7,840 nt of DNA from Clostridia bacterium (GTDB lineage Bacteria > Bacillota_A > Clostridia > UBA1381): NCBI GenBank assembly GCA_017451145.1, contig JAFSSG010000042.1:1-7840 (forward strand), read 5' to 3'. Made by a program: the position numbers and the translations under genes. The notes under the pieces are model-generated. The model saw nothing but the letters and a program-made list of their open reading frames with translations. It was not told the origin of the DNA and did no database searches. Below, piece by piece: positions 1 to 7,840 of the stretch (positions within the stretch are counted from its first letter, which is position 1; each line of letters begins with the position of its first letter).

Positions 1-284
1 CTTTTAAGCTCAACATCTTCGCCCTGAGGCCCTACGCCCCTATTATTTATCAGGAAATTATAAAGGTATTCGACTCCAGTCCATGAGGCAGTACGGTTTG
101 ACGCGTTTATATAGTACCAGCCAAAAATCGGCGTATAGTTCATAACTCCCGAACCCGCATAAAGACATTGCGACGCAAAGTTTGTACAATCTCCGCCCAG
201 CTCCGAAAAATCGAAAAATTCGGGATTTCTGCCGTATGCCCATTTATTTGCATATGCCACTGCTCTTTCCCTATCATATCTCAT
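1..284 (-). CDS. Amidase_6-family putative cysteine amidase, 5' part only (3' end outside window)
   Basis: The first 94 residues are visible; the gene runs off the left edge. The protein opens with MRYDRERAVAYANKW, followed by GGDCTNFASQC (residues 30-40) and a Tyr/Trp-rich stretch with GWYYIN and WTGVEYLYNFL. This is the signature of the putative amidase domain Amidase_6 (PF12671), a papain/NlpC-like fold in which the Cys of GDCTNF (C33 here) is the presumed nucleophile. The His would lie beyond the edge. The start is supported by GGGTGAT at 290-296, complementary to the 16S 3' tail, a few bases before ATG. There is no signal peptide or membrane segment: the catalytic domain begins at residue 1, so this form should be cytoplasmic unless exported another way. 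The natural substrate is unknown; cell-wall peptide or amide hydrolysis is only a family guess. A terminator separates it from the ligase gene upstream, so it is probably a separate transcription unit. Confidence 0.8.
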   Translation of the reverse strand, partial: MRYDRERAVAYANKWAYGRNPEFFDFSELGGDCTNFASQCLYAGSGVMNYTPIFGWYYINASNRTASWTGVEYLYNFLINNRGVGPQGEDVELK

Positions 285-302
285 AATTTATCACCCTTTA
301 CT

Positions 303-331
303 ATTTTATGATAGTAATTGGCAAGTGACAC
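303..331 (-). promoter_or_regulatory. Possible sigma-A promoter for the Amidase_6 gene
   Basis: Reading the minus strand, GTGTCA (326-331) is followed after 17 bp by TAAAAT (303-308). These match 4/6 and 5/6 of the -35 and -10 consensus. Only about 50 bp lie between the upstream terminator and the start codon, so any dedicated promoter must be here. The predicted transcription start would fall close to or inside the ribosome binding site and leave an extremely short leader, which weakens the call. Confidence 0.3.
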
Positions 332-358
332 AAAAAAGGCGGATATTTCCGCCTTTTA
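332..358 (-). terminator. Rho-independent terminator of the nrdD-to-ligase operon
   Basis: On the minus strand the sequence forms a perfect stem of AAAAGGCGGA with TCCGCCTTTT, a four-base AATA loop and six consecutive T. The GC core is 338-343 paired with 348-353. The ligase stop codon TAA (356-358) sits in the foot of the hairpin, so termination begins as soon as the last gene ends. The plus-strand reading also forms the hairpin but has only four T, so the minus-strand direction is favoured. Confidence 0.9.
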
Positions 359-2053
359 TACCGTTTCCAACTGTTCAAGTTTTTTATAGTCAATCTTGCC
401 AACAAGGGTTTTTGGCATCTCTTCAAGGAATTCTATTTCATAAGGCATCGCATATTTTGCGATATTCTTTTTACAGTATTCCATAAGCTCTGCCCTTGTT
501 TCCTCCGTTTTCGGAATATCTGCTTTTAATCGCACAAACGCCTTTACCTTGTGCATTTTATATGCGTCGGGAACGCCTATGACGCAGCTCGAATCCACAA
601 ATTTATGTGCATTTAAGATGTTCTCTATCTGCAAGGGATAAACGTTATATCCCGAGGAAATTATCATCCTTTTTGCCCTTCCGTGAAAATAGACAAATCC
701 CTCGTTATCCATAACGCCCAAATCGCCGGTATATACCCACGTAAGCCCGTCGGCATGGGTACGCAACGTTCTTGCCGTTTCCTCAGCATTATTGAGATAC
801 CCTTGCATAACGGTAGGTCCTGCAATTACGATTTCGCCCTCCTCACCGTAAGGAAGCTCAATATCTGTATCGGGTTTTACTATTTTTATATACATATCGG
901 GAAGCGGAATACCGATACTTCCTGCCTTAAATATATGCTGCGGCATCAGACAACAGGCGTTTACCGTTTCGGTTGTACCGTAACCCTCACGTATTTTTAC
1001 TGTGCTTTTATGATTCTTTAAAAATTCGTTAAACCTACCTGAAAGGTCGGTAGAAAGAGAATCGCCTCCCGAAAATACGCCCTTTAGACTGCTCAAATCT
1101 GCCCTGTCAAAACGCGGAATACGTAAAATCGCCTCATAAAGAGTAGGCACTCCGGCAATAAAATTGCATTTGTATTTTGTTATAAGCTTTGCATAGCTTT
1201 TCGGTGTAAAGCGTGGCACTAAAACGCATCTGCCGCCATGTGACAGCATAGCATGAATGCACACTCCAAGCCCAAACCCGTGAAAAAGCGGCATCGCCGT
1301 AAGCATACTGTCGCCTACTTTGAACGGGTTTGCTGATATTACCTCTTCCGCGAGTGCGTTAAAATTTCTATTCGACAAAAGTATGCCTTTTGTAACTCCT
1401 GTTGTTCCGCCGGAATATAGAATAACCGCGGTATCCTCCGCTTTCCGTTTTACTCTGTAATTATAAAAACAGCATCCCGAAAGACGCATAAAATCTTTCC
1501 AGCGGATTATCGGTGCATTTTGCGGAATTTTTCGGATTTTTCGCCCCTCTGTCAGCATATACCCCGCTTTAATCGGCTTTGACAGTTCGTCCTTCACACT
1601 TGCTATTATTATATTTGTAAGCTTTGTATTATGGCGGATCGCCTCGAATTTTCCGTAAAATCTATCAAGCGTAATAGCCGTTACACTTTCCGACTCGCTC
1701 AGGTAAAACTCTATCTCCTTTTCAGCTGCAAGTGGATGAATCATATTCGCGACTGCACCCACTAAATTCACCGCATACAGCATATAAACAGCTTGTGGAC
1801 AGTTCGGAAGTGCGATAGTAACCCTGTCATTTTCGCGTACACCTATGGTTTTTAGTGCCTTTGCACACCGTTCCACTTCCTCTACCATTTTTTTGTAGCT
1901 GGTAGCCCGTCCCATAAAATCAAACGCCGTTAAATTTGGGTATTTATACGCCATGTTCTCTACCATTTCAAACATAGTTCCGCCGAAATATTCCAACTTA
2001 TCCGGCACATCGCCCATTGAGGAAAGCCATGGGGTTTTAACGACCATTCCCAT
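356..2053 (-). CDS. AMP-forming acyl-CoA synthetase (long-chain fatty-acid-CoA ligase-like), ANL superfamily
   Basis: This complete protein of 565 residues has every hallmark of acyl-CoA/aryl-CoA ligases, which adenylate a carboxylic acid with ATP and transfer it to CoA. It carries the phosphate loop YSGGTTGVTKG (213-223), PLFHGFG (255-261), GYGTTET (357-363), YTGDLG (441-446), the hinge region GRAKRMIISSGYNVYP (458-473) and PKTLVGKIDY (547-556). The catalytic Lys is K553. There is no signal peptide and the protein should be cytosolic. Length and motif order fit medium/long-chain fatty acyl ligases, but the acid cannot be read from sequence. The ATG at 2053 is preceded by AGGAGG at 2065-2070, 11 nt away and inside the last codons of the upstream gene. 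A second ATG at 2047 (Met3) has AAGGA 8 nt upstream and is possible. Only 6 nt separate it from the upstream acyltransferase-like gene, implying translational coupling and a shared job. It is the last gene of the operon. Confidence 0.93.
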   Translation of the reverse strand: MGMVVKTPWLSSMGDVPDKLEYFGGTMFEMVENMAYKYPNLTAFDFMGRATSYKKMVEEVERCAKALKTIGVRENDRVTIALPNCPQAVYMLYAVNLVGAVANMIHPLAAEKEIEFYLSESESVTAITLDRFYGKFEAIRHNTKLTNIIIASVKDELSKPIKAGYMLTEGRKIRKIPQNAPIIRWKDFMRLSGCCFYNYRVKRKAEDTAVILYSGGTTGVTKGILLSNRNFNALAEEVISANPFKVGDSMLTAMPLFHGFGLGVCIHAMLSHGGRCVLVPRFTPKSYAKLITKYKCNFIAGVPTLYEAILRIPRFDRADLSSLKGVFSGGDSLSTDLSGRFNEFLKNHKSTVKIREGYGTTETVNACCLMPQHIFKAGSIGIPLPDMYIKIVKPDTDIELPYGEEGEIVIAGPTVMQGYLNNAEETARTLRTHADGLTWVYTGDLGVMDNEGFVYFHGRAKRMIISSGYNVYPLQIENILNAHKFVDSSCVIGVPDAYKMHKVKAFVRLKADIPKTEETRAELMEYCKKNIAKYAMPYEIEFLEEMPKTLVGKIDYKKLEQLETV

Positions 2054-2059
2054 TGTCCT

Positions 2060-2926
2060 TTATACCTCCTCAGAAAGCGGTCTGTCCAAAAGCTCGGGTT
2101 TTTCCAAAATGTCCTTAAACAGTTTTATTGTCTTTGAAAAATAGTATCCGTCTGCGATCCGCTCGTCAACAGTAAAGCCTAAATCTACGCTGTCACGCAT
2201 AGTGACATTTCCGCTTTCATCAAAAAACGGACGCATTTTTCTCTCCCCGACTATAACAAAAACAGAGGTTGTTCCCCAATTTGTCAGATGATGATAGCCC
2301 GAATGAAGCTTTATTGAGCCGAGATTTGTAAGTATTACCGATGACTGATACGGATCCGTTTCCAAAAGCGATGCAGGGACTTTGCCGTGACGTTCTAAAA
2401 CGCATAAGAATTTCACGAGCGATTTTGCAAACCATCTCGGCATTTTATTGAATATGTCCATAACCTCGCTCGTTGCGTCTTTATTATCGCCCGTTCGGCA
2501 ATATGTTACCTGACGGTAAATTTCGTTATGAATATCGTCAATCGTGTCGGTTTCTTTTGAATGAATAAATGCCAAGCCTTCCTCGCTCGAATCGGTAAAC
2601 TGCTTCTTTATCACAAAGGACGCACTTATTTCATTCCTTTGATAAAGATTGTTGTTTGCAATAAATCTGTTCATTTTCGGTCTTAAAGTCACCGTTTTGA
2701 GAATTGCAGTAACTATCGCCTGAAACAGATTATACTTGTATTCGGGATTTCCGCTGTTTTTCTTTTCTAAATACTTGTTGAGATTGGTAAGGTCGATTCT
2801 TTCTGAAACAAACGCCTCATTATCGCATCTGTTCGGCATCATAATCGGCATCATAAAATGCATCGCGTCAACATTTCTCAAAAGTACACCGTCACGTCTG
2901 TCGCCGTGCCTACGTTTTTTGCCCAT
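2060..2926 (-). CDS. Stand-alone E2/CAT-fold acyltransferase-like protein (2-oxoacid dehydrogenase acyltransferase catalytic domain) lacking the catalytic His
   Basis: The 288-residue protein is recognisable as the catalytic domain of the 2-oxoacid dehydrogenase E2 / chloramphenicol acetyltransferase fold (PF00198). Supporting stretches are LFQAIVTAILKTVTLRP (67-83), MNRFIANNNLY (85-95), VILTNLGSIKLHSGYHH (197-213), WGTTSVFVIVGE (217-228) and DERIADG (254-260). It has no lipoyl or peripheral-subunit-binding domain, and no E1 or E3 gene is nearby, so it is not an ordinary pyruvate dehydrogenase component. In E2 and CAT the last motif is DHRxxDG or HHxxxDG with His as catalytic base. Here that position is Glu255 (codon GAG). 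It may be a pseudoenzyme, a variant acyltransferase or a scaffold. The basic N-terminus (MGKKRRHGDRRDG) is notable. Start ATG has AGGAGA at 2934-2939, 7 nt upstream and overlapping the preceding gene's TAG stop. It is coupled to the acyl-CoA ligase downstream, which could supply its acyl-CoA. Confidence 0.85.
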   Translation of the reverse strand: MGKKRRHGDRRDGVLLRNVDAMHFMMPIMMPNRCDNEAFVSERIDLTNLNKYLEKKNSGNPEYKYNLFQAIVTAILKTVTLRPKMNRFIANNNLYQRNEISASFVIKKQFTDSSEEGLAFIHSKETDTIDDIHNEIYRQVTYCRTGDNKDATSEVMDIFNKMPRWFAKSLVKFLCVLERHGKVPASLLETDPYQSSVILTNLGSIKLHSGYHHLTNWGTTSVFVIVGERKMRPFFDESGNVTMRDSVDLGFTVDERIADGYYFSKTIKLFKDILEKPELLDRPLSEEV

Positions 2927-2937
2927 AACTATTTCTC

Positions 2938-3843
2938 CTAAAACTTTTTAGAATCTATATAATCACATGCAGACAATGCCGCAACAGCACCGTCTGACGC
3001 TGCCGTCGTTACCTGTCTTATCTTTTTTTGACGGCAATCTCCTGCTACAAAAATTCCGTCTTTTGCTCCGTTTAAATCGGCATCTGCTTTTGCATAGCCA
3101 CGCTCGTCAAGCTCCAAAATGTTTGAAAAAGCATCATTTTGCGGAATGAGTCCGACTGCCAAAAATACGCCGTCAACCGAAAGTTCGCTTTTTTCACCGC
3201 TCTTCTCATTTTTTATGCGTATTCCGCTTAATTCGTTGTCACCCAGATACTCGGTGACAACACTGCCCAAAATGACTTCAACATTGTCCTTTAACTGCTC
3301 TTGAAGCTTTTTTTCGCCCGTCAAAAAGTCCAGATTTTGCACGATATACACCTTTTTGGCCAAATCCGAAAGCAAAATCGCCTCTTGCAAAGCAGAGTTC
3401 CCGCCACCTACTACTGCGACGGTTTTATTCATATAAAATGCCCCGTCACAAACGGCACAAAAGGATATGCCCTCACCTATAAATTTTTCCTCGTCGGGAA
3501 GCCCTAAAAGGCGGTGCTTTGCACCTGTTGCAACAATCACCGCTTTTGCCGAAAACTCTCCGCCGTCGGTTGTTACGGTTTTAATACCGTCACCGCTGAC
3601 GCTCAAAACCTCCGCAGATTCCACATCTGCACCCTGATAAAGCACCTGCTCTACCAGCTTTTCGGCAAATTCATTACCTGAAAGTTCGGTAAATCCCGGG
3701 ATATTTTCAACCTTTGGCGAAAATGTTATCTGTCCGCCAAAAGTCTCCTTTTCTATTACCAGAACTTTTTTATTCGCTCTTAACGCATACAGAGCGGCGG
3801 TCAGCCCAGCAGGGCCGCCGCCGATTACAATAATATCGTACAT
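2938..3843 (-). CDS. trxB: Thioredoxin-reductase-like FAD disulfide oxidoreductase with atypical NAD(P)H site
   Basis: The 301-residue protein has the low-molecular-weight thioredoxin reductase architecture. The FAD site is DIIVIGGGPAG (3-13), the redox-active pair is C129-A-V-C132 followed by DGAFY, a second Rossmann motif VVGGGNSALQEA lies at 144-155, and FVAGDC is at 265-270. It should reduce a thioredoxin or glutaredoxin-like disulfide. The stretch that normally reads HRRxxxR and holds the 2'-phosphate of NADPH reads VQNLDFLTG (168-176), so NADPH use is doubtful; NADH or reduced ferredoxin is possible. Start choice: ATG at 3843 gives the family-typical MYDIIVIGGG and has AAGGA 7 nt upstream. 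An in-frame ATG at 3861 overlaps the nrdD stop but has no ribosome binding site. The gap to nrdD is 10 nt, and the TAG stop overlaps the next gene's ribosome binding site. The likely partner is the glutaredoxin-like domain fused to NrdD. Confidence 0.9.
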   Translation of the reverse strand: MYDIIVIGGGPAGLTAALYALRANKKVLVIEKETFGGQITFSPKVENIPGFTELSGNEFAEKLVEQVLYQGADVESAEVLSVSGDGIKTVTTDGGEFSAKAVIVATGAKHRLLGLPDEEKFIGEGISFCAVCDGAFYMNKTVAVVGGGNSALQEAILLSDLAKKVYIVQNLDFLTGEKKLQEQLKDNVEVILGSVVTEYLGDNELSGIRIKNEKSGEKSELSVDGVFLAVGLIPQNDAFSNILELDERGYAKADADLNGAKDGIFVAGDCRQKKIRQVTTAASDGAVAALSACDYIDSKKF

Positions 3844-3850
3844 ATCTTTT

Positions 3851-3856
3851 TCCTTA
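3851..3856 (-). promoter_or_regulatory. Ribosome binding site fixing the trxB start, overlapping the nrdD stop
   Basis: TAAGGA on the minus strand contains the nrdD stop codon TAA and an AAGGA Shine-Dalgarno core 7 nt before the ATG at 3843. This selects 3843 over the upstream ATG at 3861. It also suggests that terminating nrdD ribosomes reinitiate on trxB. Confidence 0.7.
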
Positions 3857-6223
3857 CGCATTTATATATTTTTTGATATCCGATACGCCTGTGAACTTTG
3901 AAACCTCGCCGTCCGATATTACAACAAGCGTCGGTGCCTGTTTGATGCCGTATTCCTCTGCCATTTCCGGATGCTCATTTGCATAAATCTTTTCATATGC
4001 AATACCCGCCTTATCGAGCGTTACACCCGCAATCTTACAATTTGGGCAAGTAGGCGTTGCGAAAAGATATACTGCATCTCCCTCTGCTGAAATCTTCTGC
4101 ACCTTCGGCTCTTCTACAGCTTTTTCATTTATTACGCCGTTTCTTGTTATCTTTGAATTTGCGATATCATATGTACGGCGGTCTTTATATTCCTGTGTTT
4201 TACCGTCGTTCCAATTCTGAACAGGGCGATAGTAACCTGTAATTCTGCTGTAAACCTCAGTCTTTTCGCCACACTCAGGACATGTTGCAACTTCACCTGC
4301 GATATAGCCGTGGTTTTTACATACCGAATAGGTAGGTGACATTGTGTAGTACGGCAATTTATAGTTTTCTGCAATCTTTCTTACAAGATTTGCAGCCGCA
4401 CTCCAATCGGGAAGCTTTTCGCCCAAGAATGCGTGGAATACAGTACCCGATGTATAAAGAGTCTGAAGCTCGTCCTGAATATCGAGTGCCGAGAAGATAT
4501 CCTCAGTAAATCCAACAGGCAAGTGTGATGAATTTGTATAATAAGGCGTTCCGTTTTCGTTTGCCGTTACGATGTCCGGGAATCTCTTCTTATCGTGTTT
4601 TGCCAAACGGTATGCCGTTGACTCAGCAGGAGTTGCCTCCAAGTTATAAAGGTCACCGTATTCCTCCTGATAATCGGACAGTCTCTCACGCATATGATTT
4701 AAAACTTCTATTGTGAAGTCTTGTGTTTCCCTATGCGTCATATCCTTCTTGAGCCAATTTGCATTAAGTCCCGCCTCGTTCATACCGACAAGACCGATTG
4801 TTGAGAAGTGATTGTTAAATGTTCCCAAGTAACGCTTTGTATATGGGTAAAGTCCGTTATCCAAAAGCTTTGTGATAACCGTTCTCTTTACCTTTAGTGA
4901 CCTTGCTGCGATATCGAGCATTCTGTCAAGACGGGCATAAAAGTCCTCTTTGTCCTTTGCCTGATACGCAATTCTCGGCATATTTATGGTAACAACGCCG
5001 ACTGAACCTGTACTTTCACCGCTACCGAAGAATCCGCCCGATTTTTTACGGAGTTCTCTTAAATCAAGACGAAGTCTGCAGCACATTGAACGAACATCGG
5101 AAGGCTCCATATCACTGTTTATATAGTTTGAGAAATACGGTGTTCCGTATTTTGCCGTCATCTCAAACAACAAACGGTTATTTTCGGTATCCGACCAGTC
5201 AAAATCTCTCGTAATCGAGTATGTCGGGATAGGATATTGGAAACCTCTGCCGTTGGCGTCACCCTCAATCATGATTTCGATGAACGCCTTGTTGACCATA
5301 TCCATTTCCTTTTTGCAGTCTTTATACTTGAAATCCATTTCCTTTCCGCCGACGATTGCATTTAATTCTGCCAAATCGTTAGGAACTGTCCAGTCAAGCG
5401 TTATGTTGGTAAAGGGCGACTGTGTACCCCATCTGCTCGGCGTATTTACGCCGTATATGAAGGACTGTATGCACTGCTTTACTTCTTTATAAGTAAGATT
5501 ATCTACCTTTACAAAAGGTGCTAAATAGGTGTCAAATGACGAAAATGCCTGTGCACCTGCCCATTCATTCTGCATAATACCCAAGAAGTTTACCATCTGG
5601 TTGCAAAGGGTGGAAAGGTGTGATGCCGGTGATGATGTAATCTTGCCGGGAACGCCTCCCAAGCCCTCCTGAATAAGCTGTTTTAATGACCAACCTGCAC
5701 AATAGCCTGTAAGCATTGAAAGGTCATGGATATGGATATCGGCATTTCTGTGAGCGTTGCCGATTTCTTCGTCATAAACTTCGGAAAGCCAATAGTTTGC
5801 GGTGATTGCACCCGAATTTGAAAGGATAAGTCCGCCTACCGAATATGTTACGGTCGAATTTTCCTTAACACGCCAATCGTTTACCTTTAAATAGTTATCG
5901 ACTATTGCCTTATAGTCAAGCATAGTTGCGTTAATATTACGCATTTTCTCATGCTGTTTACGGTAGAGAATATACGCCTTTGCAACCTCGTCATATCCTG
6001 CCTTAATCAAAACAGATTCAACGCTGTCCTGTATATTTTCGACGCTGATTTTGCCGTCTTCAATTTTCGGTTCAAAATCCGCAGTTACTTTCAGTGCCAA
6101 AAAATCTACTGTGTCAGGGTGATATTGCTTTTCACAAGCATCAAACGCCATCGTTATAGCGTCTTTAATTTTTGCGATGTTAAAGTCTGCAACTCTTCCA
6201 TCTCTTTTTAGTACAACATACAT
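3854..6223 (-). CDS. nrdD: Anaerobic (class III) ribonucleoside-triphosphate reductase with fused C-terminal glutaredoxin/NrdH-like domain
   Basis: The 789-residue glycyl-radical enzyme reduces ribonucleotides to deoxyribonucleotides without oxygen. An N-terminal ATP-cone (about 3-95, starting VVLKRDGRVADFN) should give allosteric dATP/ATP control. The catalytic barrel contains IHIHDL (163-168), C175, SMCCRLRLD (379-387; C382 is the probable thiyl-radical Cys by comparison with the Cys-Arg of E. coli NrdD) and GVVTINMPRIAY (409-420). A zinc site uses C635, probably H638, C648 and C651. RITGYYRPV (660-668) holds the radical Gly663. After a short linker, residues about 714-789 form a thioredoxin-fold domain with YLFATPTCPNCK (CxxC 726-729) and the cis-Pro motif QAPTLVV (762-768). 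This domain probably supplies reducing electrons in cis. AGAGGA lies 7 nt before ATG. NrdG, encoded upstream, installs the radical; trxB downstream probably re-reduces the fused domain. NrdR boxes lie over its promoter. Confidence 0.97.
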   Translation of the reverse strand: MYVVLKRDGRVADFNIAKIKDAITMAFDACEKQYHPDTVDFLALKVTADFEPKIEDGKISVENIQDSVESVLIKAGYDEVAKAYILYRKQHEKMRNINATMLDYKAIVDNYLKVNDWRVKENSTVTYSVGGLILSNSGAITANYWLSEVYDEEIGNAHRNADIHIHDLSMLTGYCAGWSLKQLIQEGLGGVPGKITSSPASHLSTLCNQMVNFLGIMQNEWAGAQAFSSFDTYLAPFVKVDNLTYKEVKQCIQSFIYGVNTPSRWGTQSPFTNITLDWTVPNDLAELNAIVGGKEMDFKYKDCKKEMDMVNKAFIEIMIEGDANGRGFQYPIPTYSITRDFDWSDTENNRLLFEMTAKYGTPYFSNYINSDMEPSDVRSMCCRLRLDLRELRKKSGGFFGSGESTGSVGVVTINMPRIAYQAKDKEDFYARLDRMLDIAARSLKVKRTVITKLLDNGLYPYTKRYLGTFNNHFSTIGLVGMNEAGLNANWLKKDMTHRETQDFTIEVLNHMRERLSDYQEEYGDLYNLEATPAESTAYRLAKHDKKRFPDIVTANENGTPYYTNSSHLPVGFTEDIFSALDIQDELQTLYTSGTVFHAFLGEKLPDWSAAANLVRKIAENYKLPYYTMSPTYSVCKNHGYIAGEVATCPECGEKTEVYSRITGYYRPVQNWNDGKTQEYKDRRTYDIANSKITRNGVINEKAVEEPKVQKISAEGDAVYLFATPTCPNCKIAGVTLDKAGIAYEKIYANEHPEMAEEYGIKQAPTLVVISDGEVSKFTGVSDIKKYINA

Positions 6224-6255
6224 TTTTTTATCCTCTTTCTTTAAATTACCTAATC

Positions 6256-6284
6256 AGTTTACCATACATATTGTATAAAGTCAA
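6256..6284 (-). promoter_or_regulatory. nrdD operon promoter
   Basis: On the minus strand TTGACT (6279-6284, 5/6 of -35) is followed after 17 bp by TAAACT (6256-6261, 4/6 of -10), with a TGG extended -10 element just before it. A second candidate overlaps it: TTGTAT (6293-6298), 17 bp, TACAAT (6270-6275). Either would be occluded by the NrdR boxes. The leader would be about 25-40 nt, followed by the AGAGGA ribosome binding site. Confidence 0.6.
6261..6276 (-). promoter_or_regulatory. NrdR box 2 (proximal), nrdD promoter
   Basis: The plus strand reads ACCATACATATTGTAT. The right half matches the NrdR consensus (ACACWATATATWGTGT) at 7/8 and the left half at 5/8; the ten-base core matches 8/10. 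Its centre is exactly 32 bp from that of box 1, the roughly three-turn spacing known for tandem NrdR boxes. That spacing is what makes this weaker half-site credible. Confidence 0.7.
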
Positions 6285-6292
6285 GCTAAAAA

Positions 6293-6308
6293 ATACAATA
6301 TATTGTGT
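6293..6308 (-). promoter_or_regulatory. NrdR box 1 (distal), nrdD promoter
   Basis: The minus strand reads ACACAATATATTGTAT, matching 15 of 16 positions of the NrdR consensus ACACWATATATWGTGT with a perfect core. NrdR is the zinc-finger/ATP-cone repressor that senses dATP/ATP and binds paired boxes before ribonucleotide reductase genes. The box lies just upstream of the TTGACT -35 element and contains the alternative TTGTAT -35. Confidence 0.88.
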
Positions 6309-6343
6309 TTTGTGACATTCGACAAATTTTTCCAAATTTCTTT

Positions 6344-6361
6344 AAAAAAAGTCTTTTTTTT
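6344..6361 (-). terminator. Weak terminator-like A/T hairpin after nrdG
   Basis: The minus strand has A8, then GAC, then T7, a perfect inverted repeat ending in a T-run about 20 nt past the nrdG stop. The stem contains no GC pairs, so it would be unstable. Partial termination or read-through into nrdD is more likely than full termination. Confidence 0.25.
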
Positions 6362-6382
6362 CATTGAAAATCCGCAAATTTA

Positions 6383-7075
6383 CTACACTCCGCGTATTTG
6401 TGTATTTTCCACAAATGCTTTTGCGGCAGATTTCATACTCTCCAAAACCTCCTTGGAAACGGCGGTCAAATTTTCGCCGATCAAGTTCCCGCTATCCTCA
6501 AAATTCTGCAAAAAATACTTCTTTGCTCCCTTTATCCACTCGGCTATCTTTAAAATGTCCGACTCGGTATGAAATTCGTTTACTACTGTTGTACGGAATT
6601 CGTAGTCAATGTCCGATGATTTCAAAAGATTTATGCTTCTTTCTATATCGGAAATATTGACATTTTTAATTCCTGCCGTTATTGCGTACTTATATTTGGA
6701 ATTTTTGATGTCCATAGCGACATAATCGATAAGATTATTTTCCAAAAGCGTTTTGAGCCTTTCGGGGAAAGTGCCGTTAGTGTCCAGCTTAACACTATAT
6801 CCCATTTCCTTTATTTTCTTGATAAAATCGGCAATATCGCCATTCATAAGCGGTTCGCCACCCGTTATGCAAACACCGTCCAAAAGCCCTGTCCTTTTTG
6901 AGAGAAAGTCCAAAATCTCCTCCTCAGAATAGGTTTGTGAGCTGTCAATATCGGTCACCAAAAGTGCGTTATGACAGAATGGACATCTGAAATTGCAACC
7001 GCCCGTGAATACGGTACAGGCTGTCTTTTCGGGATAGTCTAAAAGCGTCAGTTTTTGAAGTCCGTGAATTTTCAT
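6383..7075 (-). CDS. nrdG: Anaerobic ribonucleotide reductase activating protein (radical SAM)
   Basis: The 230-residue protein carries the radical-SAM motif C27-x3-C31-x2-C34 (GGCNFRCPFCHN), which binds the 4Fe-4S cluster that cleaves S-adenosylmethionine, and the SAM-contacting TGGEP (71-75). The opening MKIHGLQKLTLLDYPEK is characteristic of the NrdG2-like branch of activases. It should abstract hydrogen from Gly663 of the NrdD encoded next door. The start at 7075 is preferred: GAGGT lies 6 nt upstream and the homologous sequence begins here. An upstream in-frame TTG at 7132 lies inside the -35 element and would translate the promoter, so it is rejected. nrdG is separated from nrdD by 159 bp and from birA by a terminator. 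It has its own promoter with NrdR-like boxes, so it is co-regulated with nrdD rather than simply in one operon. A pyruvate formate-lyase activase is the alternative, disfavoured by context. Confidence 0.92.
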   Translation of the reverse strand: MKIHGLQKLTLLDYPEKTACTVFTGGCNFRCPFCHNALLVTDIDSSQTYSEEEILDFLSKRTGLLDGVCITGGEPLMNGDIADFIKKIKEMGYSVKLDTNGTFPERLKTLLENNLIDYVAMDIKNSKYKYAITAGIKNVNISDIERSINLLKSSDIDYEFRTTVVNEFHTESDILKIAEWIKGAKKYFLQNFEDSGNLIGENLTAVSKEVLESMKSAAKAFVENTQIRGV

Positions 7076-7081
7076 ATTATT

Positions 7082-7086
7082 ACCTC
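7082..7086 (-). promoter_or_regulatory. Ribosome binding site fixing the nrdG start
   Basis: GAGGT on the minus strand lies 6 nt before the ATG at 7075. No comparable site precedes the longer in-frame alternative. Confidence 0.7.
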
Positions 7087-7103
7087 GTGCAAAAGATGTT
7101 CTC

Positions 7104-7132
7104 ATTATATAACATAAATCTCCGCTTGTCAA
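7104..7132 (-). promoter_or_regulatory. Consensus sigma-A promoter of nrdG
   Basis: TTGACA (7127-7132), a 17-bp spacer and TATAAT (7104-7109) are a perfect match to both hexamers with optimal spacing. Transcription should start near 7097, giving a leader of about 20 nt. So strong a promoter for an enzyme needed in small amounts makes sense if it is normally held down by a repressor; an NrdR-like box abuts and overlaps the -35. Confidence 0.88.
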
Positions 7133-7146
7133 TCAATATATTGTAG
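7131..7146 (-). promoter_or_regulatory. NrdR-like box, proximal, nrdG promoter
   Basis: The plus strand reads AATCAATATATTGTAG. The ten-base core CAATATATTG matches CWATATATWG perfectly and is identical to that of nrdD box 1; the outer bases are degenerate. It overlaps the first two bases of the -35 element, a position suited to repression. Confidence 0.7.
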
Positions 7147-7171
7147 AAAATTGTTAAATTTTGTATTTTTT

Positions 7172-7187
7172 TATCAATATATAGACG
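7172..7187 (-). promoter_or_regulatory. NrdR-like box, distal, nrdG promoter
   Basis: The plus strand reads TATCAATATATAGACG. The core CAATATATAG again matches CWATATATWG at 10/10, but the flanks do not match. Its centre is 41 bp from that of the proximal box, about four helical turns rather than the usual three. In an AT-rich spacer this could arise by chance, so it is less certain than the others. Confidence 0.5.
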
Positions 7188-7197
7188 CTTATTATAT

Positions 7198-7229
7198 AAA
7201 AAAGGCTTATAGGCAATAGCCCAAAAGCC
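7198..7229 (-). terminator. Rho-independent terminator of birA
   Basis: On the minus strand GGCTT (7225-7229) pairs with AAGCC (7204-7208). After one mismatch an inner stem TGGGC/GCCTA caps with a TATT loop, and six T follow at 7198-7203. The hairpin overlaps the last codons and the TAA stop of the biotin ligase gene. It insulates nrdG from read-through. Confidence 0.8.
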
Positions 7230-7840
7230 CTCTTACCGACACTTCGCCGAAATTTATTACTTCGATTTTGCCGTCCGCTTCCGCCAAAAGTTCGCCCTTA
7301 TCGCCTATTCCCACCGCATACATTTTTTTGTTTTTTCCGTTTTTGATTACCGTTATTTCACGGTTTATCGTGACGCACTTTTCGGAATATTCATCTCGGA
7401 TTTTGCAAAACCCTTGCGAAAATTCATCTAAAACTGAAATAATTTCATTATATACTTTTATAATAAGCTCTGTTTCGTTCTGCTCCATCCCCGAAAACAA
7501 TCGTATTGATGTGGCTTTTTCCGAAAGCTCTTCCGGAAATTCGGTATTGTTTGCATTTATACCGACGCCGATTGCAATAACGCCCGTTTTGCCCGTGATT
7601 TTGGTTTCTATTAAAATTCCCGCCACTTTTTTGCTTCCCAGAATTATATCGTTGGGCCATTTTATAAGTGATTTCGGGATTACTCTTGAAACGGCAAGTC
7701 CTACGGCAAGTGTCATTGCCGAGACATCCTCCGTTATCTCTTTCGGCTTTAAGAGAACTGTCATATAGATACCGCCTTTTGACGCCTCCCAAGTCCTTCC
7801 CTTTCTGCCCCTGCCGTTAGTCTGATTTTTTGTTAAAAAC
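7207..7840 (-). CDS. birA: Biotin-[acetyl-CoA carboxylase] ligase (BirA family), C-terminal 210 residues; N-terminus outside window
   Basis: The reading frame is open to the right edge, so this is a truncated view and not a gene starting at the internal ATG 7764. Upstream of that ATG the frame encodes QTNGRGRKGRTWEASKGG, the BirA biotinyl-AMP loop (GRGRxGR, visible residues 9-15). This is followed by KWPNDIILGSKKVAGILIE (60-78), with the Lys that contacts biotin/ATP, and by IGVGINANN (90-98), ELSEKATS and the small C-terminal SH3-like domain ending VRGLLGY. The enzyme activates biotin with ATP and attaches it to the biotin carboxyl carrier protein in fatty acid synthesis. Whether it also carries the N-terminal DNA-binding helix-turn-helix of repressor-type BirA cannot be seen. 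It ends in its own terminator before the nrdG promoter. Confidence 0.93.
   Translation of the reverse strand, partial: FLTKNQTNGRGRKGRTWEASKGGIYMTVLLKPKEITEDVSAMTLAVGLAVSRVIPKSLIKWPNDIILGSKKVAGILIETKITGKTGVIAIGVGINANNTEFPEELSEKATSIRLFSGMEQNETELIIKVYNEIISVLDEFSQGFCKIRDEYSEKCVTINREITVIKNGKNKKMYAVGIGDKGELLAEADGKIEVINFGEVSVRGLLGYCL

Follow-up and report, generated by a model that had tools for sequence, protein, structure and literature searches.

An acyl ligase and an E2-like protein with a changed active site, encoded behind nrdD and trxB in one lineage of Clostridia

The window analysed here is a stretch of 7,840 nucleotides from a gut-type Clostridia bacterium (GCA_017451145.1, contig JAFSSG010000042.1, positions 1 to 7,840). 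Its seven genes, named via family searches, are all on the minus strand. Four of them follow each other closely: the genes for a class III ribonucleotide reductase (nrdD) and a thioredoxin reductase (trxB), a gene for a relative of the E2 acyltransferases of 2-oxoacid dehydrogenases (the E2-like gene) and a gene for an AMP-forming acyl ligase. With confidence and doubt about equally balanced, we read the last two as a conserved acyl module of Clostridia, in which the ligase would activate an acyl group for transfer by the E2-like protein to a membrane lipid, and which in one lineage stands behind nrdD and trxB. The unit comprises the following features.

6293-6308, minus strand: NrdR box 1 (ACACAATATATTGTAT), 15 of 16 positions of the consensus, identical in loci L001 and L030.
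6261-6276, minus strand: NrdR box 2 (ATACAATATGTATGGT), 12 of 16 positions, within the putative promoter 6284-6256.
6223-3854, minus strand: nrdD, class III ribonucleotide reductase with an ATP-cone and a fused C-terminal redoxin domain (PF13597, PF03477, PF00462/PF00085; PRK08270 above cut-off).
3843 (likely start; alternative ATG at 3861) to 2938, minus strand: trxB, thioredoxin reductase with a CAVC motif (TIGR01292, 319.5 bits, below its cut-off of 343).
2926-2060, minus strand: E2-like gene, 288 amino acids, CAT/E2 fold (PF00198).
2053-356, minus strand: AMP-forming acyl ligase of the fatty-acid type, 565 amino acids (PF00501, E 2e-80, and PF13193).
About 331-357, minus strand: intrinsic terminator at the ligase stop (-14.3 kcal/mol, z -5.1).

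With trxB starting at 3843, directly downstream of AAGGAAAAA, the gaps between the four genes are 10, 11 and 6 nt, as an earlier reading of the sequence alone had given them; from ATG 3861, trxB would overlap nrdD by 8 nt. The purine-rich ribosome binding sites embedded in the preceding gene ends and the strong terminator at the ligase stop were likewise recovered; the terminator is present in L001, not in L002. The sequence-only reading had assigned the unit to 2060-6308, which leaves the ligase gene outside. It had also seen no room for an internal promoter. A promoter-like site scoring 9/12 lies inside trxB (3162-3133), so that an internal promoter is possible there; the window as a whole has 19 such sites against 18.5 expected, no more than chance would give. 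The layout makes a single transcript from nrdD to the ligase gene, with read-through into the two acyl genes, likely.

The two NrdR boxes, scored against the consensus ACACWATATATWGTGT, are separated by 16 bp, and the putative nrdD promoter around box 2 scores 9/12. Since single 12/16 sites also occur inside nrdD (5114, 6099), it is the tandem and not a single box that counts. When the intergenic region was resampled 2000 times and the window 100 times under an order-1 Markov model, no resampling attained the tandem's joint score of 27. The same tandem lies upstream of nrdD in L001 and L030, where one change brings box 2 under the scan threshold. A search for the NrdR protein gave a match in 11 of 12 genomes, G001, G257 and G264 among them, and none in G261. 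Known NrdR sites mostly have a spacer of 15-16 bp, and nrdDG operons, for example in Listeria, likewise have tandem boxes with a 16-bp spacer over the promoter (PMC12051234). With two boxes at this distance at its promoter, the window unit has the box layout of NrdR-controlled ribonucleotide reductase operons, which supports the boxes claimed before nrdD, and NrdR probably controls the whole series from nrdD to the ligase gene. Unlike the nrdDG operons, the window has an nrdD with a fused redoxin domain (CPNC motif, residues 726-729), and trxB and two acyl genes stand behind it.

How far this arrangement extends was surveyed in the best 80 of at least 514 confirmed E2-like loci. As these are the best-scoring loci and were partly chosen by the peptide T[VI]DERIAD, the set favours near relatives. 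Three of the 80 loci (L001, L002 and L030) have nrdD and trxB beside the E2-like gene, and their E2-like proteins are 85-95% identical to that of the window; five loci hold less than 1 kb upstream, where an nrdD neighbour could not show. Within the family of the L001 genome, 11 of 70 genomes have E2-like matches and three the full order (G001, G257 and G264). G261 has the same nrdD and acyl pair, both at contig ends, and because of this break counts neither for nor against the order; in G017 and G252 the DNA seen holds the pair but no nrdD. The same nrdD type occurs in 9 of the 70 genomes (77-98% identity, E up to 1e-150), and five other family members have it with no acyl pair behind. One of them, G265, has trxB downstream of nrdD and then another gene; in G241, G233, G240 and G158 the 1.5 kb downstream of nrdD hold neither trxB nor the pair, and the gene there resembles acetolactate synthase, as judged by eye. 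Because the same nrdD type stands without the pair in these members, the simplest view is that the acyl pair was added locally to an nrdG-nrdD unit that is older.

Among the genomes surveyed, then, the nrd linkage of the acyl pair is local. Three species-level genomes besides the window share the order, which is thus not confined to one species, but all are close relatives. If selection had placed the pair under NrdR so that fatty-acid activation, and with it the supply of membrane lipid, keeps pace with DNA synthesis, such a functional coupling would account for the tight co-operonic spacing, the tandem NrdR site shared with L001 and L030, the one terminator and the order kept in three species-level relatives with proteins 80-98% identical. 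We nevertheless regard it as improbable, given the few linked loci and family genomes, the five members with the same nrdD type and no pair behind it, and the fact that no nrdD was seen near 55 of the 58 loci in which the E2-like gene and the ligase gene are paired, 50 of these 55 with 1 kb or more of upstream sequence. On the counts of 3/80 loci and 3/70 family genomes, a general coupling of acyl metabolism to deoxynucleoside triphosphate (dNTP) synthesis is likewise not supported; of the reasons offered by the sequence-only reading, gene hitch-hiking fits the survey best.

The identification of the ligase stands: it is an AMP-forming acyl ligase with the AMP-binding fold and the P-loop (SGGTTG 214), TGD (YTGD 441) and C-terminal lysine (KTLVGK 548) motifs. 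Nine orthologues aligned with it at 67-73% identity. Its closest NCBIfam models are long-chain fatty-acid CoA ligases, with scores below the cut-offs, and the names of these best matches suggest a fatty acid as substrate. In 58 of the 80 loci the ligase gene comes directly after the E2-like gene, at a match distance of 9-30 nt in 41 of these. Among the other 22 loci, L070 has the ligase gene directly upstream, L035 has no sequence beyond the E2-like gene, and L028 and L047 have fewer than 500 bases. The genome of L041 (G005) has a second E2-like gene, paired with a ligase gene elsewhere; the solitary paralogue in L041 (7922-9616) stands beside genes of the diacylglycerol kinase and CDP-diacylglycerol synthase types.

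Ligase presence was tested in 80 genomes at E 1e-100. The gene was found in 13 of the 15 genomes with the strongest E2-like scores, adjacent to the E2-like gene in all 13, in 6 of 42 with weaker scores, in none of the 17 without an E2-like gene and in 5 of the remaining 6, which had been reached through loci. The distances of E2-like and ligase proteins are correlated (Mantel r 0.61, null maximum 0.24; 50 of 58 pairs, full sequences), which fits joint descent but equally a shared organism history, and we give this result no weight.

The E2-like protein has the E2/CAT fold in its predicted model. Its 288 residues contain PF00198 as the sole domain found, without the N-terminal lipoyl and subunit-binding domains of E2, and a search of solved structures by sequence returned weak E2 matches alone (best E 0.014). 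Members of the CAT superfamily usually have a histidine-based active site. Here, Glu255 aligns to the catalytic histidine of the E2 motif HxxxDG, and among 160 sequences this position is Glu in 158, Asp in one and Val in one. The name E2-like acyltransferase, as first proposed, therefore holds for the fold; the absence of the canonical histidine had been overlooked. The family has a new loop with an invariant His212-His213, and conservation is strict or almost so for these two, for Ser/Thr200 and for the DxR..DG residues. The protein further differs from E2 in that it is paired with an acyl ligase, and no E1 or E3 is among the named genes of the window.

The exchange of histidine for glutamate in 158 of 160 sequences would also be expected if the E2-like protein were a non-catalytic scaffold or regulator and the chemistry were done by the ligase alone. 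Such relatives exist: E3BP is a degenerate, inactive E2 of the pyruvate dehydrogenase (PDH) core, and its model 6h60 is among the fold matches of the E2-like protein. The adjacency of both genes in all 13 strongest-branch genomes that have them would suit this role as well. The conservation of His212-His213, Ser/Thr200 and the DxR..DG residues is, however, unlike that of a decayed enzyme, and the ligase gene is missing from many genomes that carry the E2-like gene; we consider a scaffold rather unlikely.

The family itself is large, with 7701 of 8000 scored candidates matched; the source names, shown for 6 of 120 rows, are 2-oxo acid dehydrogenase subunit E2 or hypothetical protein. In the class of G003, 64 of 196 sampled genomes have a match: 57 strong (>150 bits), one fragment and six weak hits, which are probably true E2 proteins. 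A distant E2-like gene with a lysine-rich tail lies in a similar gene row in L127, L130, L132 and L134, from genomes of about 0.8-0.9 Mb, preceded in L127 by a gene of the MgsA type. For further E2-like loci, a scan of 20 of 80 listed same-strand neighbours gave two upstream MarR-type regulators (L153, L154) and otherwise diverse families.

An acyl ligase encoded together with a CAT-superfamily transferase resembles the CTA/Oaa operons of gut Lachnospiraceae, which consist of a ligase, a CAT-superfamily condensation protein and a carrier protein (PMC13060934, PMC13142362). By the same logic, in the same kind of gut bacteria, the pair might make a fatty-acid amide or detoxify free fatty acids. 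In the window, however, no carrier-protein gene lies between transferase and ligase genes, where 6 nt leave no space for one (match distance at most 30 nt in 41 of the 58 loci), and a crude motif scan of small open reading frames in the 80 loci for a carrier-protein gene near the pair gave four hits, none resembling an acyl carrier protein by eye. The condensation proteins keep the second histidine of (D/H)HxxxDS in >99% of members (PMC13142362), and the corresponding residue in the E2-like family is Glu. The window protein moreover has one CAT-type domain in place of two condensation-domain lobes and different active-site residues, and other loci of the pair have neighbours of a phospholipid type. 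An amide-forming or detoxifying role is thus improbable.

These phospholipid-type neighbours, PlsC-fold and PAP2-type proteins, occur in about a third of the loci. The PlsC-fold protein has the LPLAT/PlsC fold. HX4D is the catalytic dyad motif of this superfamily; His42 is kept, and the Asp position is Gly47 in all 19 aligned rows. NCBIfam has no family for the PAP2-like protein and gave for the PlsC-like one sub-threshold lipid acyltransferase matches alone; the PlsC-fold gene of L023 (6644-7402) and its relatives have no Pfam match. In L088 (G033), PAP2-like and E2-like parts are fused in a frame of 506 residues (829-2346), and a frame of equal length occurs in G188; these are the two strong E2-like genomes without the ligase, with the fusion instead. 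Apparent fusions in L028, L037 and L047 were rejected, as their long open reading frames are read as spurious upstream extensions.

The pair is widespread, lies apart from nucleotide genes in most genomes surveyed and looks like part of a lipid-type, little-studied module with an unusual CAT-fold protein. We propose that the ligase adenylates a fatty acid and forms an acyl thioester, which the E2-like protein would take up in a CAT-type channel, handing the acyl group to a membrane-lipid acceptor. Its active site would be rebuilt, with Glu255, His212-His213 and Ser/Thr200 replacing the canonical histidine. PlsC-fold and PAP2-type proteins, where present, would complete the module and locate it at the membrane. 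In one narrow lineage the two genes would have moved behind nrdD-trxB and would now probably be co-transcribed under NrdR. Gene order, operon features, the narrow nrd linkage, pair conservation and the residue changes are observed, and the folds are predicted models; from these we infer the chemistry, the acceptor, the form of the donor, a trimer and any benefit of NrdR control.

Several points weigh against a lipid-acylating module. Of the 42 genomes in the weaker-scoring branch, 36 are without the ligase, and in G002, G033 and G188 no ligase lies close to the E2-like gene; the E2-like protein can therefore work without it. Loss of the catalytic histidine may mean that no acyl group is transferred at all, and the PlsC-like protein has Gly in place of the HX4D Asp. 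PlsC and PAP2 partners are absent from the window, and the PlsC-like gene was not found in the nearest genome, G001, which makes the lipid link indirect for this lineage. Finally, the 80 loci are a selected set.

The set of folds is equivalent to that of Kennedy-type lipid synthesis (PlsC, PAP, DGAT/wax synthase and FadD), from which it differs in that both transferase-fold proteins are without the canonical catalytic residue and the E2-like protein is an E2/CAT domain alone. It is tempting to speculate on an undescribed membrane-lipid pathway of gut Clostridia, in which a dedicated ligase, the PlsC-fold protein that lacks the HX4D Asp, a PAP2 phosphatase and a CAT-fold acyltransferase with a His-His/Glu active site would together use scavenged fatty acids to acylate a membrane lipid, perhaps of the diacylglycerol type, and in one lineage the core pair, under NrdR, would be linked to dNTP demand; in this full form the idea is a long shot. 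The link to ribonucleotide reductase is local, yet leads to a large family that lacks features required of a PDH E2 and departs from the histidine-based active site. If the E2-like protein acylates lipids, it would open a new route by which gut bacteria exposed to dietary fat use fatty acids, and would be an enzyme of the CAT fold whose catalytic base has been relocated.

Among the papers listed in searches of open-licence literature, none dealt with the pairing of E2-like and ligase genes or with operons that join nrdD, trxB and acyl genes, and no listed title concerned acyl genes under NrdR in one operon. A replacement of FakA/FakB fatty-acid uptake by the pair is not supported in general, with DegV/FakB-type proteins in 29 of 44 genomes and in 18 of 22 that have the pair. 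G001 and G257, which are among the closest relatives of the window, are two of the four pair-bearing genomes without DegV/FakB, but their assemblies are small (1.4 and 1.0 Mb), and in this lineage such a replacement is at best possible. A role in phage defence was dropped, with no PADLOC match at E 0.01.

The window holds the following further features.

7839-7207, minus strand: end of a biotin ligase gene (family searches).
7131-7146, minus strand: NrdR-box-like site (12/16), overlapping the -35 of the nrdG promoter and singly not significant.
7075-6383, minus strand: nrdG2, activase of the class III ribonucleotide reductase (TIGR02495, 231.8 bits, above cut-off).
284-3, minus strand: start of an Amidase_6 gene (family searches).

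The nrdG promoter (7132-7104) is a perfect sigma-70 match (12/12), and a weaker second NrdR-like site upstream would mean a long spacer of about 25 bp. Beyond the ligase terminator, the Amidase_6 gene is kept in L001, L002 and G261.
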